DNA from: Duganella sp. Root336D2
GTDB lineage: Bacteria; Pseudomonadota; Gammaproteobacteria; Burkholderiales; Burkholderiaceae_D
Assembly: GCF_001425005.1 (NCBI RefSeq)
Contig: NZ_LMDB01000012.1
Coordinates: forward strand, 124,001 to 188,000
DNA: 64,000 bases
Direction: 5' to 3'
Each line of letters begins with the position of its first letter. Within the stretch, counting starts at the first letter, position 1. Made by a program: the position numbers and the translations under genes. Positions 2,971-33,085 of this stretch are shown here, piece after piece. The notes under the pieces are model-generated. The model did not search any database, was not told the DNA's origin, and saw only the letters and a program-made list of their open reading frames with translations.

Positions 2971-5862
2971 ATGCAATCTAATCAAGATATTTCCACCACG
3001 CAGGCGCCTCACGTGCCTGTTTCCGCTGGCGAAACTGCCGGCGGCGTCGCTGTTTCCGCTAGCCAACTGGCCGACTACCGCATCATCCGCCGCAACGGCG
3101 CCGTGGTAGCTTTCGAGCCATCCAAGATCGCCGTGGCAATGACCAAGGCTTTCCTGGCAGTGAACGGCGGCCAGGGTGCGGCGTCCGCCCGCATCCGCGA
3201 ACTGGTGGAAGAATTGACCCAGAAAGTGGTGACCGCGCTGATGCGCCACCAGCCAACCGGCGGCACCTTCCATATCGAAGACGTGCAAGACCAGGTTGAA
3301 CTGGCCCTGATGCGCTCCGGCGAACACGATGTGGCGCGTTCCTACGTGCTGTACCGCGCCAAGCACATGGAAGAACGCCGCCTGAAGAAAGAAGCTGCCG
3401 GCGCCGCCGCCGCCGCTGAACCGCAGATCAACGTCACCGAGAACGGCGTTGCCCGTCCGCTGGTGATGCAGGAAGTGCGCGACCTGATCGGCGCCGCCTG
3501 CAAGGGCCTGGAAAAGCACGTCGATGCCGACGCCATCCTGGCCGAAACCGTGAAAAACCTGTACGACGGCGTGCCGGTCGAAGAACTGCACAAGTCCGCC
3601 ATCCTGGCTGCCCGCGCGCTGATGGAAAAGGACCCTGCGTACTCCCAGGTGACCGCCCGCATCCTGCTGCACACCATCCGTAAGGAAGTGTTCGGCAAGG
3701 AAGTGCCGCAAGCCGGCGCCGCCGCTGCCTACATCGAGTACTTCCCGCAGTACATCGCCAAAGGCATTGCCGCTGAACTGCTGAACGAAGAACTGGGCAA
3801 GTTCGACCTGGCCAAGCTGGCCAAGGCCCTGGTGGCCGACCGCGACCTGCAGTTCGGCTATATCGGCCTGCAAACCCTGTACGACCGCTACTTCCTGCAC
3901 GTGCGCGATGTGCGCATCGAAATGCCGCAGGCCTTCTACATGCGCGTCGCCATGGGCCTGGCCCTGAACGAAAGCGACCGCGAAGCGCGCGCCATCGAGT
4001 TCTACAACCTGCTGTCGACCTTCGACTTCATGTCGTCGACCCCGACCCTTTTCAACTCCGGCACCCAGCGTTCGCAGCTGTCCTCCTGCTACCTGACCAC
4101 CGTGTCCGACGACCTGGAAGGCATCTACGACGCCATCAAGGAAAACGCACTGCTGGCCAAATTTGCCGGCGGCCTGGGCAACGACTGGACCCCGGTGCGC
4201 GCACTGGGCGCCCACATCAAGGGCACCAATGGCAAGTCGCAAGGCGTGGTGCCGTTCCTGAAAGTGGTGAACGACACCGCGGTGGCAGTGAACCAGGGCG
4301 GCAAGCGCAAAGGTGCAGTCTGCGCCTACCTGGAAACCTGGCACATGGACATCGAGGAATTCCTCGACCTGCGCAAGAACACCGGCGACGACCGCCGCCG
4401 CACCCACGACATGAATACCGCGAACTGGATTCCGGACCTGTTCATGAAGCGCGTGATGGAAAAATCGCACTGGACCCTGTTCTCGCCGTCCGAAACGCCT
4501 GACCTGCACGACAAAGTCGGCAAGGCCTTCGAAGAAGCCTACGTCGGCTACGAAGCCAAAGCCGCTGCCGGCGAAATCCGCGTGTTCAAGAAGATCGAAG
4601 CGCTGGACCTGTGGCGCAAGATGCTGTCGATGCTGTTCGAAACCGGCCACCCATGGATCACCTTCAAGGATCCGTGCAACATCCGTTCGCCGCAGCAGCA
4701 CGTGGGCGTGGTCCACAGCTCGAACCTGTGCACCGAGATCACCCTGAACACCAACGAAGACGAAATCGCCGTCTGCAACCTGGGTTCCGTGAACATGCCT
4801 GCCCACATGAAAGAGGGCAAGATCGATCACGTCAAGCTGCAGAAGACCATCCGCACCGCAATGCGCATGCTGGACAACGTCATCGACATCAACTACTACG
4901 CAGTGGAGAAAGCACGTAACGCCAACATGCGCCACCGTCCGGTCGGCATGGGCGTGATGGGCTTCCAGGACTGCCTGCACATGATGCGCGTACCGTACGC
5001 CTCGATGGAAGCGGTGCAGTTCGCCGACACCTCGATGGAAGCCGTCTGCTACTACGCCTACCTGGCGTCGACCGAACTGGCCGAAGAGCGCGGCAAGTAC
5101 GAGTCGTACGAGGGTTCCCTGTGGTCGCGCGGCATCCTGCCGCAAGACTCCGTGCGCCTGCTGGCGGAACAGCGCGGCGGCTACCTGGAGCAGGACCTGT
5201 CGTCCGCGATGGACTGGACCCCGGTACGTGAACGCATCGCCAAGTTCGGCATGCGTAACTCGAACTGCGTAGCGATCGCCCCGACCGCCACCATTTCGAA
5301 CATCATCGGCGTGTCGGCTTGCATCGAACCGACCTTCCAGAACCTGTACGTGAAGTCCAACCTGTCCGGCGAATTCACCGAGATCAACGCCTACCTGGTG
5401 CGCGACCTGAAAGCGCGCGACCTGTGGGACGAGGTGATGATCGCCGACCTGAAGTACTTCGACGGCTCGCTGAGCAAGATCGACCGCGCACCGCAAGACC
5501 TGCGCGATATCTACGCCACCGCGTTCGAAGTGTCGCCAAGCTGGCTGGTGGAAGCCGCATCGCGCCGCCAGAAGTGGATCGACCAGGCCCAGTCGCTGAA
5601 CATCTACATGGCAGGCGCATCCGGCAAGACCCTGGACGAAACCTACAAGCTGGCATGGCTGCGCGGCCTGAAGACCACCTACTACCTGCGCACCATCGCT
5701 GCATCGCACATGGAGAAGTCGACTTCCCGTACCGGCGCCCTGAACGCCGTGTCCGCGAACGTGCCGGACGCCCCGGCGGCAGTAGCTGCCGAGCCAGATG
5801 GCGCCGCCTGCTACCTGCGTCCTGGTGACGACGGTTTCGAGGAATGCGAAGCCTGCCAGTAA
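2971..5862 (+). CDS. nrdA: Class Ia ribonucleoside-diphosphate reductase, alpha subunit
   Basis: A 963-residue large subunit that reduces ribonucleoside diphosphates to deoxyribonucleotides in the cytoplasm, with NrdB supplying the tyrosyl radical. Two ATP-cone domains are visible in tandem (about 30-130 and 150-240); the first should be the allosteric activity site for ATP/dATP. The catalytic barrel carries the N-x-C-x-E active-site triad at 585-589 (NLCTE) and the first redox cysteine in QLSSCYL. The C-terminus ends in a CxxC pair (ECEACQ) that shuttles electrons from thioredoxin or glutaredoxin. It is longer than the E. coli enzyme of about 760 residues because of the second cone and N-terminal tail. 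The ATG has a GGAG-type ribosome binding site at 2962-2965. Regulation by NrdR is predicted from the two upstream boxes. A 178-bp gap with palindromic repeats separates it from nrdB. Confidence 0.97.
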   Translation: MQSNQDISTTQAPHVPVSAGETAGGVAVSASQLADYRIIRRNGAVVAFEPSKIAVAMTKAFLAVNGGQGAASARIRELVEELTQKVVTALMRHQPTGGTFHIEDVQDQVELALMRSGEHDVARSYVLYRAKHMEERRLKKEAAGAAAAAEPQINVTENGVARPLVMQEVRDLIGAACKGLEKHVDADAILAETVKNLYDGVPVEELHKSAILAARALMEKDPAYSQVTARILLHTIRKEVFGKEVPQAGAAAAYIEYFPQYIAKGIAAELLNEELGKFDLAKLAKALVADRDLQFGYIGLQTLYDRYFLHVRDVRIEMPQAFYMRVAMGLALNESDREARAIEFYNLLSTFDFMSSTPTLFNSGTQRSQLSSCYLTTVSDDLEGIYDAIKENALLAKFAGGLGNDWTPVRALGAHIKGTNGKSQGVVPFLKVVNDTAVAVNQGGKRKGAVCAYLETWHMDIEEFLDLRKNTGDDRRRTHDMNTANWIPDLFMKRVMEKSHWTLFSPSETPDLHDKVGKAFEEAYVGYEAKAAAGEIRVFKKIEALDLWRKMLSMLFETGHPWITFKDPCNIRSPQQHVGVVHSSNLCTEITLNTNEDEIAVCNLGSVNMPAHMKEGKIDHVKLQKTIRTAMRMLDNVIDINYYAVEKARNANMRHRPVGMGVMGFQDCLHMMRVPYASMEAVQFADTSMEAVCYYAYLASTELAEERGKYESYEGSLWSRGILPQDSVRLLAEQRGGYLEQDLSSAMDWTPVRERIAKFGMRNSNCVAIAPTATISNIIGVSACIEPTFQNLYVKSNLSGEFTEINAYLVRDLKARDLWDEVMIADLKYFDGSLSKIDRAPQDLRDIYATAFEVSPSWLVEAASRRQKWIDQAQSLNIYMAGASGKTLDETYKLAWLRGLKTTYYLRTIAASHMEKSTSRTGALNAVSANVPDAPAAVAAEPDGAACYLRPGDDGFEECEACQ

Positions 5863-7189: not shown

Positions 7190-7225
7190 AAAAGGCCTCT
7201 TGGTGAGAATCAAGGGGCTTTTTTT
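7190..7225 (+). terminator. Rho-independent terminator of nrdAB
   Basis: An 11-bp stem (7191-7202 with 7211-7221, with one bulged G and one G-U pair) runs into a seven-T tract (7219-7225). The downstream insertion sequence is placed in this tract and its 8-bp target duplication restores the tract on the far side. Confidence 0.8.
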
Positions 7226-7226
7226 A
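7219..7226. repeat. Target-site duplication, left copy
   Basis: TTTTTTTA directly abuts the left inverted repeat of the insertion sequence and is identical to 8545-8552. Eight base pairs is the usual duplication length for ISL3-family elements. Confidence 0.85.
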
Positions 7227-7248
7227 GGTTCTTCACGGATTACCGGGA
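7227..7248. repeat. Terminal inverted repeat, left
   Basis: This 22-bp end matches the right end with 20 of 22 identical bases when one is reverse-complemented. It overlaps the last codons of the transposase. Confidence 0.9.
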
Positions 7249-8438
7249 AACGCGGCTTTGATCTTCAAGAAGAAGAATTCGGAGTCGCGATACCCATAAG
7301 CCATCCGCTTCATTACCTTGATCCGATTGTTAATCCCTTCAAGCTGTCCGGTATGCATTGGCCAGTGCATCCGGGCCAGAATGCCTTTCCAGTACAAAGC
7401 AAGACGTCTGGCAAAGCGCTTTAGAGGTTCGATTGCACTGGCTTTTGCCATGTGCTGCCATGATCTCCAGGCGGCGCGCCAGCACCAGGGATTGGTAGGC
7501 TGCCAGAGTTCTTTCAAGCTTGCCTTCATTACGTAGACGGTCATTAGAGCTTGGTTTGCCTCGAGAAGTTCGGCCAACTTGGGAGCTTGATCTGGCGGTA
7601 CGTTGCCTGGATTGCGCAGCAGCAGCCACCGCGCTCGCTTCACGTACTGACGGCCCGCTTTGTCGTCGCGCAGCCGATTTGCCTCATCGACCCGTACTCG
7701 ATCAATGACCTCGCGACCATATTTGGCGATGACATGGAACAGGTCGTAGACGACTTTGGCCTGGCGGCAATGGCATTTCACTTCCAGATCGAAGGCGGTG
7801 TTCATATCCATGGCCACGGCACGGATACGCCGGCAGCGCTCGGGACCTAACCACGCAAAAAACGGTCGAATGGCCTCTCGACTACGCCCTTCACAGACCC
7901 AGATGACGCGTCGAGTGTCAGCATCTAGTACGACCGTGGCGTAGCGATGGCCTTTAAACAGGGCAAATTCATCCATGACCAGCCTGGTTGGCTGGGGTGG
8001 CGGCAATGCCGCCACCCTACGTTCCAGGTCTTGGCGATGAATTTGATGAACCGTGCCCCAGTGAAGGCCGGTAAGTTGGCAAACATGGGCGATTGGCAGC
8101 TTCTCACTCCATTGAGCGACGAACTCCGCCAAACGGCGTGACACCCGAGCATGGCGATCCAGCCAGCTGATTCGCTGGGTGCAACAGCGGCAGCAGGTCG
8201 CGCAGCGCAATCTATTGACTGCAATAGTGAGAAACACAGGCAATCCCGCCATCGGCAAATCACGCACCGTACGCCATGTGGTTTCATGGATGCACGATGC
8301 ACTGGCTCCGCAGTGGGAACAAATCAGCGCGTACGCAGGATCAGCTGCCAGCCTTACTTGCAACTGATTGCCGACGACATCCAGAGAGGAAACGAGAAAG
8401 CCTTCCCAGAATGGGAGGCTGAGTCTATGATTTGACAT
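7233..8438 (-). CDS. ISL3-family transposase
   Basis: A 401-residue DDE transposase. The N-terminal part has a cysteine-rich zinc-finger region (CSHCG followed by CATCCRCC), then a helix-turn-helix-like stretch around residues 100-135. The catalytic DDE core includes the aspartates in RLVMDEFA and AVAMDMNTAF and the glutamate in GQLEGINNRIK. The length and motif order match intact ISL3 transposases, and there is no frameshift. It fills almost the whole element. Its stop lies inside the left terminal repeat, which is common in this family. It catalyses cut-and-paste movement of the flanking inverted repeats. Confidence 0.93.
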   Translation of the reverse strand: MSNHRLSLPFWEGFLVSSLDVVGNQLQVRLAADPAYALICSHCGASASCIHETTWRTVRDLPMAGLPVFLTIAVNRLRCATCCRCCTQRISWLDRHARVSRRLAEFVAQWSEKLPIAHVCQLTGLHWGTVHQIHRQDLERRVAALPPPQPTRLVMDEFALFKGHRYATVVLDADTRRVIWVCEGRSREAIRPFFAWLGPERCRRIRAVAMDMNTAFDLEVKCHCRQAKVVYDLFHVIAKYGREVIDRVRVDEANRLRDDKAGRQYVKRARWLLLRNPGNVPPDQAPKLAELLEANQALMTVYVMKASLKELWQPTNPWCWRAAWRSWQHMAKASAIEPLKRFARRLALYWKGILARMHWPMHTGQLEGINNRIKVMKRMAYGYRDSEFFFLKIKAAFPGNP

Positions 8439-8522
8439 GAGAGCAGTGGGTTGGTTAGTGGGTTTGGTCGCACAAACACAATAACTCTTCCTTACTGCTC
8501 TCTTGCGTTTACAGCTCGGTCA

Positions 8523-8544
8523 TCCCGGTAATCCGCGATGAACC
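8523..8544. repeat. Terminal inverted repeat, right
   Basis: This is the right 22-bp end of the element, on the transposase 5' side. About 85 bp separate it from the transposase start, enough room for the element's own promoter. Confidence 0.9.
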
Positions 8545-8552
8545 TTTTTTTA
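8545..8552. repeat. Target-site duplication, right copy
   Basis: TTTTTTTA is identical to 7219-7226. It marks the original insertion point and lies 4 bp from the stop codon of the next minus-strand gene. Confidence 0.85.
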
Positions 8553-8555
8553 CGA

Positions 8556-8957
8556 TCACGTACGCATTGTTTCTGCCAACTGCCAGCGCGTTTCGCCTGG
8601 CAGGAGCAGCCAGACGTGCTTCCAGGCGTTGCGCGTACAACCCGCTAACTGGTTCACTAATTGTGCAGGCGATACTTCTGCGCCGTTGTGATGAATGTGA
8701 TCGCCATCAACAGTGGCGTGAAAAATCTTGCGCCGTATCGCGATGCGGATCCTCGTGCCGGACGGCAGGAAAAGTGATTTCCATTGATAGCCTCCTTTCA
8801 GCACATCACCATCGTTGGTCAGTGCAGTATTTTGCTTTGCAATCCAGTCGGAGATAGCGCGGCCAGCGACGTCGGCAAGTTCCTCGGTCACGCGCCGGCC
8901 GTCGAGGAATTCGCTAAGATCGTTGAAGGTTTGAAACGGTACCGGTATGTCGATCAA
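8556..8957 (-). CDS. Small protein with RAMA-like C-terminal domain
   Basis: A 133-residue protein of unknown function. Residues about 60-133 (from FLPSGTRIRI through a central DGDHI-HHNGAEVSP stretch to W-K-H-VW and the W-L terminus) resemble the RAMA domain, a small fold found fused to or near restriction and modification enzymes. I place it there by pattern, not by search. The N-terminal half is unassigned. The start is uncertain: TTG at 8957 is the only usable start codon, because the frame stays open upstream to about 9027 without ATG or GTG. GAGAGAG lies just upstream. The gene ends 12 bp before the insertion sequence and begins at the edge of the phased repeat array. No methylase or nuclease is adjacent. 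Confidence 0.5.
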   Translation of the reverse strand: MIDIPVPFQTFNDLSEFLDGRRVTEELADVAGRAISDWIAKQNTALTNDGDVLKGGYQWKSLFLPSGTRIRIAIRRKIFHATVDGDHIHHNGAEVSPAQLVNQLAGCTRNAWKHVWLLLPGETRWQLAETMRT

Positions 8958-8988
8958 CTCTCTCGTTTTCGGCTCCTTGGCAACACTA

Positions 8989-9254
8989 CGCTTAAACCTG
9001 CTCGATTCGTCACGAAGTGGCTAAAAGTTGCTTATTGCCGCCTCGATTGCGCTCATTTGATGCTCGTTTTTTCACGAAACTGCTCATTTTTGCTTAACGT
9101 TGCTCAGGCCATGGCGTGAATCTTGCTGGGCCAAAACGAGCGGAATTAAGCAAAATCGAGGCAAAAAGTGCAGTGAACGAGCAGAAATGTGCAGCAAATA
9201 AGGCACAATTAGCAGCCATATGAAACTTCGAGCAGGATTGAGCAGCTTTAAGCA
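8989..9254. repeat. Symmetric helically phased pentamer array (two 117-bp arms)
   Basis: Two mirror-image arms each carry twelve pentamer positions spaced 9-12 bp (average about 10.3). The left arm reads TGCTY-type pentamers at 8989, 8999, 9009 (GTCAC), 9018, 9029, 9039, 9050, 9061, 9071 (TTCAC), 9081, 9091 and 9101. The right arm reads RRGCA-type pentamers at 9138, 9148, 9159, 9168, 9179, 9189, 9201, 9210, 9221 (TGAAA, degenerate), 9230, 9240 and 9250. Each left unit has a right partner about the same centre near 9122. The spacers are mostly A/T runs, so A-tracts recur once per helical turn. It lies in the 372-bp gap between the RAMA-like gene and the beta-propeller gene. I know no named element with this form. 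Confidence 0.8.
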
Positions 9255-9329
9255 CGGCGCCCAGAAAAGGACTGGGTGTACACAGGGGAGATTGGACAGC
9301 GCCATCGGGAGCAAAGTTCCTGATCAACG

Positions 9330-10277
9330 TCAATGAATTCGAATACGTAGGGCTGAGCGTGCGGCAAGCAGGATATCCCCGTTCCGATCCACTGCGATGG
9401 AGCGAATCCATGTTGAGCACTGCTCCGTTGGAAGCCGTACCAGGCCGGGCAGGGGACCCTCCGGTGTTCCGATGAGCGTTGTGACTTCGCCGGAAGCTGT
9501 CACTTTGCGGACGGCGCAGTCCTGGTCGACCACCAGGAAATCGCCGTTATGATCGGCAGTGGCTGCCGTCGGTCCACAGAAGCGCGCGTTTTCGCCGCTT
9601 CCATCAACCATGCCGCACTCGCGGGGTTTTCCCGCAAGATGCTTGAGTTGCCCATCTTCGAGCAGGAAGACCGCGCCGTCGTTGTCGACGACCAGTACCT
9701 GGCCTCTTTTGTTTACAGCTATTCCATCGATAGTGGGGATCTGGTTGCCGTCATAGGAGTGCTCCGAGTTACGCAATAAAGTCCGTTGTCCGCTGGCGTC
9801 TACTTTCCATATTTCGCCAACTAGCCCTGCGGTGAGGTAGATGCTTCCATCGCCGTCCACTGCGAGACCCGTGATAGAAGAGTGGATGCGAATTTTTTCG
9901 ATTGCTTCCGCCTGTGTGAGCAAACCCACCACATGGTCCAGAATGCAGCCGTCGCCATCCGCGCCATTGCTTGCGTAGACATTACCCAGCCTGTCTATAC
10001 CTACGAAGTCTGGAACGAGAAGCGATGCTACGACTTCGAGTTCGGGACTCGTTCCGTTGAGGCGAAATACCTTGCCTTCGCCATTGAAAATCAAGTAGAC
10101 CGAACCGTCGTCGGCGGCGGAAATCGCTGTGGCGTAGCCATCTCGTTCGGCAATCGTTTCGATGGTCGGCTTGGGCGGAAGCGGGGCGGGCCGCGTGGCG
10201 GGGCCGAAAATGCTTGCGACCGCCAGCACGGTGGCAAGGCCGATGTAGCAGGCAGCAAGTTCAACTCGGGTGCGCAC
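9330..10277 (-). CDS. Membrane-anchored NHL-type beta-propeller protein
   Basis: A 315-residue protein with one N-terminal hydrophobic segment (about 7-27, acting as signal or anchor) followed by repeated strands of the NHL/beta-propeller kind: DGSVYLIFNGEGKVFRL, DRLGNVYASNG, DGDGSIYLTAG, NKRGQVLVVDNDGAVF, DHNGDFLVVDQ and DRNGDILLAA. Such proteins are usually extracytoplasmic binding scaffolds; the ligand here is unknown. The start is GTG at 10277, with an AAGGAAGG stretch about 15 nt upstream; no ATG in frame fits better. It is divergent from the gene at 10344, with about 65 bp between them. No catalytic residues are recognisable. Confidence 0.72.
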   Translation of the reverse strand: MRTRVELAACYIGLATVLAVASIFGPATRPAPLPPKPTIETIAERDGYATAISAADDGSVYLIFNGEGKVFRLNGTSPELEVVASLLVPDFVGIDRLGNVYASNGADGDGCILDHVVGLLTQAEAIEKIRIHSSITGLAVDGDGSIYLTAGLVGEIWKVDASGQRTLLRNSEHSYDGNQIPTIDGIAVNKRGQVLVVDNDGAVFLLEDGQLKHLAGKPRECGMVDGSGENARFCGPTAATADHNGDFLVVDQDCAVRKVTASGEVTTLIGTPEGPLPGLVRLPTEQCSTWIRSIAVDRNGDILLAARSALRIRIH

Positions 10278-31454: not shown

Positions 31455-32474
31455 ATGGCAACCGCCGCTAAGAAGAAACCAGCAGCCGCTAAAGCAGCTG
31501 CTCCAGCAAAGAAAGCTGCCGCTAAGCCGGCCGCTAAAGCCGCAGCTAAACCGGCTGCTAAACCAGCCGCTAAGAAAGCCGCTGCCAAGCCAGCCGCTAA
31601 ACCAGCCGCTAAGAAAGCTGCCGCTAAGCCAGCAGCAAAACCAGCAGCTAAGAAAGCCGCCGCTAAACCAGCTGTGAAGAAAGCCGCTGCTAAGCCAGCA
31701 GCAAAACCAGCAGCCAAGAAAGCAGCAGCTAAACCAGCAGCGAAGAAAACCGTCGCCAAGGCAGCAGCTAAGCCAGCAGCTAAAAAAGCAGCCGCTAAAC
31801 CAGCAGCTAAAAAAGCCGTCGCTAAAAAAGCAGCAGCTAAGCCAGTAGCGAAGAAAGCTGCAGCTAAGCCAGCAGCCAAGAAAGCCGCCGCCAAACCAGC
31901 AGCTAAAAAGACCGTAGCTAAAGCTGCTGCCAAGCCAGCCGCCAAGAAAGCCGCTGCCAAGCCAGCAGCCAAGAAAGCTGCTGCCAAACCAGCTGCCAAG
32001 AAAGCTGCTGCCAAGCCAGCTGCCAAGAAAGCCGCTGCCAAGCCAGCTGCCAAGAAGGCTGCTCCTAAAGCTGCTGCCAAGCCAGCCGCTAAGAAAGCTG
32101 CTGCCAAGCCAGCTGCCAAGAAAGCCGCTGCCAAGCCAGCTGCTAAAAAAGCCGCTCCTAAAGCCGCCGCAAAACCAGCTGCCAAGCCTGCAGCTAAAAA
32201 GGCCGCCCCAAAAAAAGCCTCGGCTAAGCCAGCAGCTAAGCCAGCTGTTGCGCCAGTAGCCGTAGCACCGGCTGCAGCTCCTGCTGCAAAACCAGCTGCC
32301 CCTAAAAAGGCCGCTGCCAAGAAACCTGCTGCTCCTAAGAAGGAAGCTGTGAAGCCAGCTGCCGCACCAGCACCTGCTGCTGCAGCTCCAGCTCCAGCCG
32401 CCGCTCCGGCAGCAAAAACCGTGATCGCCCCGGCAGCCGCCTGGCCGTTCCCGACCAGCACCCGTCCTGCCTAA
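31455..32474 (+). CDS. Histone H1-like lysine/alanine/proline-rich repeat protein
   Basis: A 339-residue protein made almost wholly of repeated AAKPAAKKA-type units, extremely basic and lacking a folded domain. It resembles bacterial H1-like and AlgP-like DNA-binding proteins, which condense DNA through lysine-rich tails. The N-terminus (MATAAKKKPAAAK) and C-terminus (VIAPAAAWPFPTSTRPA) are the only non-repetitive parts; the tail with WPFPTSTRP may be a conserved tag. A clear AAGGAG site and a strong terminator bracket it, so it is a monocistronic gene. Repeat number may vary between strains. The DNA uses mixed Lys and Ala codons, so the protein repeat is not a recent DNA duplication throughout. 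Confidence 0.88.
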   Translation: MATAAKKKPAAAKAAAPAKKAAAKPAAKAAAKPAAKPAAKKAAAKPAAKPAAKKAAAKPAAKPAAKKAAAKPAVKKAAAKPAAKPAAKKAAAKPAAKKTVAKAAAKPAAKKAAAKPAAKKAVAKKAAAKPVAKKAAAKPAAKKAAAKPAAKKTVAKAAAKPAAKKAAAKPAAKKAAAKPAAKKAAAKPAAKKAAAKPAAKKAAPKAAAKPAAKKAAAKPAAKKAAAKPAAKKAAPKAAAKPAAKPAAKKAAPKKASAKPAAKPAVAPVAVAPAAAPAAKPAAPKKAAAKKPAAPKKEAVKPAAAPAPAAAAPAPAAAPAAKTVIAPAAAWPFPTSTRPA

Positions 32475-32557: not shown

Positions 32558-33085
32558 GTGTTTAGTATTCTTAAGCTGATCGTCGATGTCGCCGCCGGCC
32601 TGCTTGGCGGTGTGCTCTTGCTGCGATTCTGGATGCAGGCTATTCGCGTCCGCCCGCCTTCGTCGGTGGCACAGTTTACTTTTCAATTATCGGACTGGCT
32701 GGTGCGCCCGCTGCGCCGCATCGTCCCCGGGATGGGGGGGTATGACTGGGCCAGCCTGATTGGCGCTTTCCTGATTGTGATCCTGGCGACTTCGGTGCTG
32801 TTCCTGGTCGGCGCCACACCGGAGGTTGTACTGCTGGCAGCCTTGCAGCGCTTCCTGGAATGGATACTGTTCGGCTTTATGGCGCTGCTGATCGTCGAAG
32901 CGATTTTCAGCTGGGTCAATCCGCATGCCCCGCTGGCGCCGTTCGTGCGCGCGTTGAACGACCCCCTGCTCAGGCCTATCCGCAAAGTGGTGCCGCTGGT
33001 TGGCAACCTTGACCTGTCGCTGCTGGTGGCCCTGATCCTGCTGCAAATCTGCCAGATCCTGCTTGGCATGCTGTTCGGCCGATGA
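32558..33085 (+). CDS. YggT-family membrane protein
   Basis: A 175-residue protein with two YggT units, each with two transmembrane segments and the PLRRIVPG / PLLRPIRKVVPLVGNLDLS motif after a loop. GTG 32558 is the start: GGAG lies 7 bp upstream, while the frame open further upstream runs through the terminator. YggT proteins are implicated in osmotic stress or in assembly at the division site; the exact role is not settled. It overlaps the DUF167 gene by 4 bp (ATGA), a common pairing. Confidence 0.9.
   Translation: MFSILKLIVDVAAGLLGGVLLLRFWMQAIRVRPPSSVAQFTFQLSDWLVRPLRRIVPGMGGYDWASLIGAFLIVILATSVLFLVGATPEVVLLAALQRFLEWILFGFMALLIVEAIFSWVNPHAPLAPFVRALNDPLLRPIRKVVPLVGNLDLSLLVALILLQICQILLGMLFGR

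Follow-up and report, generated by a model that had tools for sequence, protein, structure and literature searches.

Helically phased mirror arrays upstream of genes for predicted RHH–RAMA-like proteins: a candidate self-regulating, mobile module in Duganella and its relatives

The locus analysed here lies within a stretch of 64 000 nt of the genome of Duganella sp. Root336D2 (contig NZ_LMDB01000012.1, positions 124 001–188 000; below, the window). At positions 8989–9254 of the window we find an array of short repeated words in two mirror arms, to neither of which a strand is assigned: the left arm (8989–9122) consists of TGCTY words in steps of about 10.25 bp, running from its distal end to the centre near 9122, and the right arm (9123–9254) mirrors it with RRGCA words at the same step. 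The left arm is the one nearer to a minus-strand gene (8556–8957; its start codon, TTG, is 31 bp away from the array) for a protein of 133 aa, which we propose as the array binder. An ISL3-family insertion sequence (7227–8544; transposase 7233–8438 on the minus strand; terminal inverted repeats GGTTC..CGGG at 7227–7247 and 8524–8544) terminates 11 bp from the stop of this gene; it is a neighbour and possible carrier, outside the module proper of array and gene. On the other side, beside the array, 9330–10277 encodes an NHL/beta-propeller-type repeat protein (SBBP, E 1.4e-08). Between 8900 and 9400 we find no sigma70-like site. The stretch 7222–10272, between nrdB and the gene of a 326-aa protein (p326), varies in length among relatives, as at an insertion hot spot. 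The nrdB- and p326-side stretches lie 34 bp apart in one relative (G075) compared with ~3 kb in the window genome, the extra ~3 kb being the ISL3 element, the module and the NHL-repeat gene; for three further relatives the distance from nrdB to the 326-aa gene is ~0.4, 3.7 and 7.8 kb.

Both the placement of the two mirror arms (TGCTY left, RRGCA right) and a pentamer phasing of ~10.3 bp had been claimed in an earlier note made from the sequence alone, and both hold: the words are seen where they were placed, and the best-fit period is 10.25 bp for the 13 [AGT]GC[AG] sites of the right arm as well as for the 10 [CT]GC[ACT] sites of the left. The arrayed words are present as described, but the twelve units per arm given in the note are a generous estimate, as degenerate words (GTGAA, ATGAA) stand at several positions; similarly, the array itself seems non-coding, but a gene starts 31 bp past its low-coordinate end. 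The phase statistic was matched by dinucleotide shuffles in 0/1000 cases for the right arm and 1/1000 for the left; sequences of equal composition thus seldom yield such phased runs, and the shuffle check that the note had proposed does not refute it. We further used a symmetric-array score, the sum of a left chain of 4-mers at 10/11-bp steps and a right chain of their reverse complement. With 7.0, positions 8989–9254 rank at the top of 670 overlapping 380-bp windows across the 64 kb (next elsewhere: 4.5); as the detector uses exact 4-mers, a low score is no proof that an array is absent. For the strict word RGCA, the longest plus-strand chain of the 64 kb is the right arm (6.5; next 3.5), while the left arm alone (3.5) falls below two minus-strand chains of 4 (32036–32075 and 33039–33072). 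Folded as a single strand, 8985–9260 reaches z = -7.0, and 0/200 shuffles were equally stable, which is expected because the arms are imperfect inverted repeats.

The window protein matches no Pfam, NCBIfam or PHROGs entry up to E 10, and a PADLOC search with it gave nothing usable (E 0.038–0.052). Profile searches with the window protein and family members recognised no nuclease or transposase domain; no Pfam domain of the RAYT (Y1/HuH) type was found among 49 members and no Pfam RAMA match among 43. An AlphaFold model built on 49 homologs (pLDDT 81, pTM 0.53) predicts helices at residues 8–21 and 27–49, followed by a six-stranded domain with short helices. Foldseek alone returned nothing at E <= 0.001 in the PDB or the viral library; the structural matches that follow come from a second look at its candidates with VIA-align 2. 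In the full-protein model the C-domain (residues 58–133) is matched by MPND (RAMA domain; Z 7.7, 70 residues, 2.6 Å) and CcrM (C-terminal part; Z 7.0); when it is modelled alone the values are 7.3 and 6.9, with a SAND domain next at 5.8. MPND and CcrM head the match lists of both models, above SAND and unrelated rows, with Z < 8; all fold matches here lie below 8, a range that may reflect merely a common arrangement. Residues 1–46 match the ribbon-helix-helix (RHH) part of Helicobacter pylori NikR (Z 4.7, 45 residues, 1.9 Å). At the sequence level the N-domain gives a weak RHH_1 match in 1/31 members (E 0.0027) and weak matches to MazE7 and CopG-type antitoxins (E 0.06–0.39). When the C-domain profile was run against PDB sequences, just two chance-like matches came up, and these were discarded. 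Based on the models, the protein likely combines an RHH-like N-domain (residues 1–46) with a RAMA-like C-domain. According to PMC9963953, the MPND domain is named RAMA, has its closest structure in CcrM and binds duplex DNA irrespective of sequence; RAMA domains are proposed as readers of adenine methylation in PMC11037411.

Relatives of the protein are common in the genus: at least one match occurs in 65/74 genomes, with a maximum of 16 per genome. A larger-alignment search of three genomes gave 9, 16 and 16 matches, broken genes being partly counted twice, and the window genome holds nine matches at eight places. Family-wide, at least 30/195 genomes match and, order-wide, at least 12/300 (mostly weakly), both lower bounds from the part of the first-look candidates that was scored. 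Named genomes contain 148 stretches that code for relatives of the protein; the 80 loci used below are the best 80 of these 148 and stem mainly from Duganella, Massilia, Rugamonas, Pseudoduganella and Janthinobacterium, with a few from Nitrosospira, Nitrosomonadales and unplaced Proteobacteria. The plasmid search returned a single weak match (Rhizobium, 38% over residues 49–132, E 3e-7), and the viral contigs and phages searched contain no member, which leaves the origin-like iteron role offered in the earlier note without support.

Plain-DNA searches with the array performed poorly: in 41 relatives they recovered, besides the array itself, only fragments of 18–36 bp, and among plasmids one chance match. 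We therefore searched the window genome and 74 genomes of the genus for a word-and-phase pattern, three RAGCA words at 10-bp spacing, which matches in 23/74 genus genomes; many of the matches are plain tandem repeats. Symmetric arrays of the TGCTC type, besides the one in the window, were found among the loci examined at L011 in the same genome (G000:C33), at L002 and L008 in G009 and at L032 in G089, and 5/5 such arrays among the loci examined lie directly upstream of a family gene. At the G000:C33 copy the gene is frameshifted and the array still regular. At four further loci (L022, L024, L026, L031) a longer homolog is preceded by GAGCA words. The array had been thought to have no obvious known counterpart; this claim has to be revised, as arrays of the same build occur in the same genome and in the genus, and the check for conserved copies in relatives has a positive outcome. 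Plain 10-bp AAGCAATAAC tandem repeats are also seen right after stop codons in several genus genomes (L013, L016, L017) and are unrelated to the gene family.

The pairing of array and gene extends beyond the TGCTC type. An upstream symmetric-array score of at least 5 was reached at 31/80 loci, compared with 2/203 upstream regions of other ORFs at the same loci, and a score of at least 6 at 15/80 compared with 1/203. The remaining 49/80 loci stay below 5, and no array was seen at L067, L084, L070 and L054. In a wider locus set, 43/101 upstream regions score at least 5, compared with 0/101 stretches starting 700 bp past the start codon; 10 G loci in which no gene was recognised were dropped from this set, and in it, as in the sets of 115 and 135 rows, some loci are doubled (one genome present in two collections, the window twice). 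At L065 a control region (~3480–3860) scored 6.5, and a second phased array may sit ~1 kb downstream of the gene; L210, upstream of the same gene as that of L065, carries a further CTGTCGAT-type repeat.

A word was obtained in 65/115 upstream regions, and the words found include TGCTC, CTCGTT, TGTCTCGT, ACTGAA, CTCTTTT, CGCTCTA, GATTTT and GCTGTTT, among others; L088, for instance, has CTCGTT and L110 CTGAAA. Within the window genome alone the paralogs carry TGCTY (two copies), GATTTTC, CTCTGAAA, GCTGAAA, ACTGAAA and CTCTTA, of which several fall below the detector threshold and were recognised by eye; the copy at L202 has no clear word. At the level of sequence, then, the array word differs from paralog to paralog. 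In many paralogs the arms enclose a promoter-like core, TTGAAC-N15..21-YCTAA, which is present on the gene strand in 35/115 regions and never on the opposite strand, with a spacer of 18 in 31/35 cores. The window's own subgroup does not have this core, so repression from arm to arm at the window is taken from the paralogs by analogy only. Many units, irrespective of their word, have a GAGTAT-N-GGGGT-like motif close to their left boundary (L174, L177, L183, L196, L168, L112 and others); its distance upstream from the YQWK-side reference point or start is roughly 150–370 bp. As pattern B, this GAGTAT-type motif occurs in 27/115 upstream regions, in 8/115 on the reverse strand and in 0/80 control stretches; a left-end motif common to the units is only a lead.

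In RHH proteins, it is normally the RHH domain that reads the DNA. We compared word similarity with the similarity of either domain. Over the 32 non-redundant loci of the cleanest set, the word correlates with the C-domain (Spearman 0.320, 0/1000 permutations) and weakly with the N-domain (0.147, 30/1000); the partial correlations are 0.288 for C given N and -0.013 for N given C. For this set 11 array rows were taken out, namely those without a clean N- or C-domain, the window duplicate and, by hand, L062 and L105, because their words resembled coding bias. With L062 and L105 restored and 8 rows dropped, the full set (34 non-redundant) gives 0.267 for the C-domain (3/2000) and 0.083 for the N-domain (253/2000), with partials of 0.258 for C given N (1/1000) and -0.044 for N given C. 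The C-domain past its first 40 residues performs about as well as the whole domain, while the first 40 residues do not, so the signal is not due to length. Columns at 0/500 number 6/53 in the C-domain (including 95, 98, 113 and 116) and 3/42 in the N-domain (23, 25 and 26). A at residue 98 is accompanied by TGCTC in 6/6 rows (5 distinct loci), and R at 98 by a word containing CTCG or TCTC in 15/19; TCTC words also occur with N or H at this position, and L132–L135, with GCTC/TGCT words and N, break a simple residue-98 rule. The expected RHH strand as word reader was unsupported by the matrix tests, in which no association with the N-domain is left once the C-domain is allowed for. That word similarity follows the RAMA-like domain and not the RHH is a lead from correlated sequences, confounded by common descent.

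Several loci share array and gene and nothing around them. Within single genomes this holds for L085/L097 (common unit 1001 bp, 97.3% identity), L092/L108 (765 bp, 92%, one MAG) and L115/L116 (790 bp, 90%), and between genomes for L088/L093 (759 bp, 90%) and L099/L100 (747 bp, 89%); in all five pairs the likeness is limited to array plus gene, and the flanks are unrelated. Sets of four, three and seven related copies, again in other surroundings, occur in G066 and G041, and the upstream parts are altered in two copies of the set of seven. Among the unit pairs compared, only L085/L097 are enclosed by ISL3-type terminal repeats; most units have no terminal repeats, and unit ends do not coincide with array ends. 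In G056 one array family occupies ten places and the gene is found at one, the other nine showing no RHH or RAMA profile match within ~1.5 kb; one of these nine, L250, has by eye kept both ends of the reading frame and lost the middle. In other genomes the same array family was found at 11 loci, some at contig ends, with both domains adjacent at 5, the N-domain only at 1 and neither at 5. Neither an RHH nor a RAMA profile match was obtained in the DNA searched around the arrays at L258, L268 and L272 (G083), L264 (G065) and L265 (G070), some of which lie at contig ends. Clear amplification of arrays was observed in one genome. Array plus gene looks like a mobile module, its movement being suggested by similarity restricted to the unit.

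We consider it probable that the array serves as operator to the adjacent gene and that the two together form one self-regulating, movable module. Protein dimers, joined by the RHH-like domain, would line one face of each arm with one contact per helical turn, and the RAMA-like domain would most likely read the word; against such a reader we count the reported sequence-independent binding of the MPND RAMA domain (PMC9963953). The two coated arms could then form a symmetric nucleoprotein block that silences the module's own transcription and, in many paralogs, encloses the promoter-like core TTGAAC-N18-YCTAA. Distinct words would allow several modules per genome without cross-repression, comparable to plasmid incompatibility groups. 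The module would spread as a unit, once with ISL3-type ends, and may leave array-only offspring. Among the roles offered in the earlier note, a matrix for a multimeric regulator or nucleoprotein assembly site fits best, since the array abuts the gene of a predicted DNA-binding protein and the pairing recurs with other words. Its suggestion of a mobile-element fossil is half right: array-plus-gene units with unrelated flanks exist, but the reading frame of the window gene is open. More tentatively, one may think of a new type of selfish chromosomal one-gene element in which protein and array form a lock and key, the RAMA-like domain being an evolvable reader of a 5–7 bp word; new words would escape cross-repression, and array-only miniature offspring may subject other genes to the same protein. 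We regard this wider picture as possible, though rather doubtful.

Other explanations have to be weighed against the self-regulating module. The ~24 positions of the array are more than simple repression requires, and ParR-type RHH proteins form helical assemblies on 10–11-bp repeats (PMC5016525 and PMC9426499), so that the protein might coat the array and thereby tether or organise DNA, as at a centromere-like or nucleoid-anchoring site, with autorepression being secondary; the gene-less arrays of one family scattered in G056 would suit such a role. Yet the common unit is a single gene with no ParM- or ParA-like motor, and its copies are numerous, mobile and differing in word, which makes an anchoring site an unlikely primary function. 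Scattered units and gene-less arrays are what one would expect if the array were mainly a recognition site for transposition machinery, REPIN- or MITE-like, and the protein an accessory or recombination partner. The ISL3-type terminal repeats of L085/L097 and the internal-deletion derivative seen by eye at L250 point the same way; however, no nuclease or transposase domain is recognised in the protein, the unit ends differ from the array ends and terminal repeats are missing in most units, and we hold this role to be improbable.

Two further readings are very unlikely. The stability of the folded strand (z = -7.0) would suit mirrored arms that act as a long hairpin within a transcript, but a transcript starting at the promoter-like core between the arms of many paralogs would contain one arm only, and the recurrence of the word matches the phase of the DNA helix. 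A functionless, decaying tandem repeat has its precedent in plain intergenic 10-mers of the genus such as AAGCAATAAC (L013, L016, L017), but here word, phase and mirror symmetry are kept while the units diverge, and such arrays are linked to one gene family; we see hardly any room for this explanation.

The module recalls several known systems. With the type II partition systems ParR–parC (R1, pB171, C. perfringens ParMRC) it shares repeats of 10–11 bp and, if the model holds, an RHH-type protein. In R1, two blocks of parC repeats flank a promoter that ParR, bound to both, represses (PMC5016525), and ParMRC families have different repeats, each ParR binding its own only (PMC9426499). The parC repeats are direct, however, whereas the arms here are inverted, and a ParM motor gene was found neither in the units with unrelated flanks (array and one gene only) nor among the window neighbours tested; as the motor gene is missing and the arms are inverted, we do not file the module as a partition module. 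It also differs from ParR–parC in its RAMA-like second domain, its several copies per genome and a word that appears to track the second domain. RHH autorepressors such as omega of pSM19035, ParG and the CopG/VapB-type antitoxins are small RHH proteins with repeats over their own promoter, as described for omega and ParG in PMC5016525, and the predicted RHH-like protein with its array resembles them; the module, in contrast, adds a RAMA-like domain and contains no toxin or partner gene, and the mirrored arrays of the window subgroup are much longer. RAMA proteins (MPND, the C-domain of CcrM, RAMA–nuclease fusions) share the modelled fold of the C-domain, whereas the module protein has no methylase, nuclease or MPN part. 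In REPIN–RAYT systems, the parent copy encodes a RAYT (Y1/HuH) transposase. The likeness to them lies in a gene with its own palindrome and scattered gene-less palindromes in one genome; here, by contrast, no transposase domain is recognised, the palindromes are phased arrays of ~140 bp and amplification is clear in one genome. Finally, the arrangement of an ISL3 mobile insertion cassette, a gene inside ISL3 terminal inverted repeats, is seen at L085/L097 and at none of the other unit pairs compared; at the window the ISL3 element adjoins the module. A literature search, with most subscription journals outside its reach and thus weak as evidence of absence, found no pairing of RAMA and ribbon-helix-helix domains and no account of such a module.

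Taken together, array and gene probably form a mobile, self-regulating module that looks to be undescribed. It offers dozens of natural pairs, each of one protein fold and one repeated DNA word, which make a putative sequence recognition by RAMA-like domains and the co-change of repressor and operator directly testable. A genus with matches in 65/74 genomes would gain in it a small mobile module that may behave like an immunity group and is unnamed in the profile libraries searched; if the gene-less arrays are bound as well, such modules could wire new regulons.
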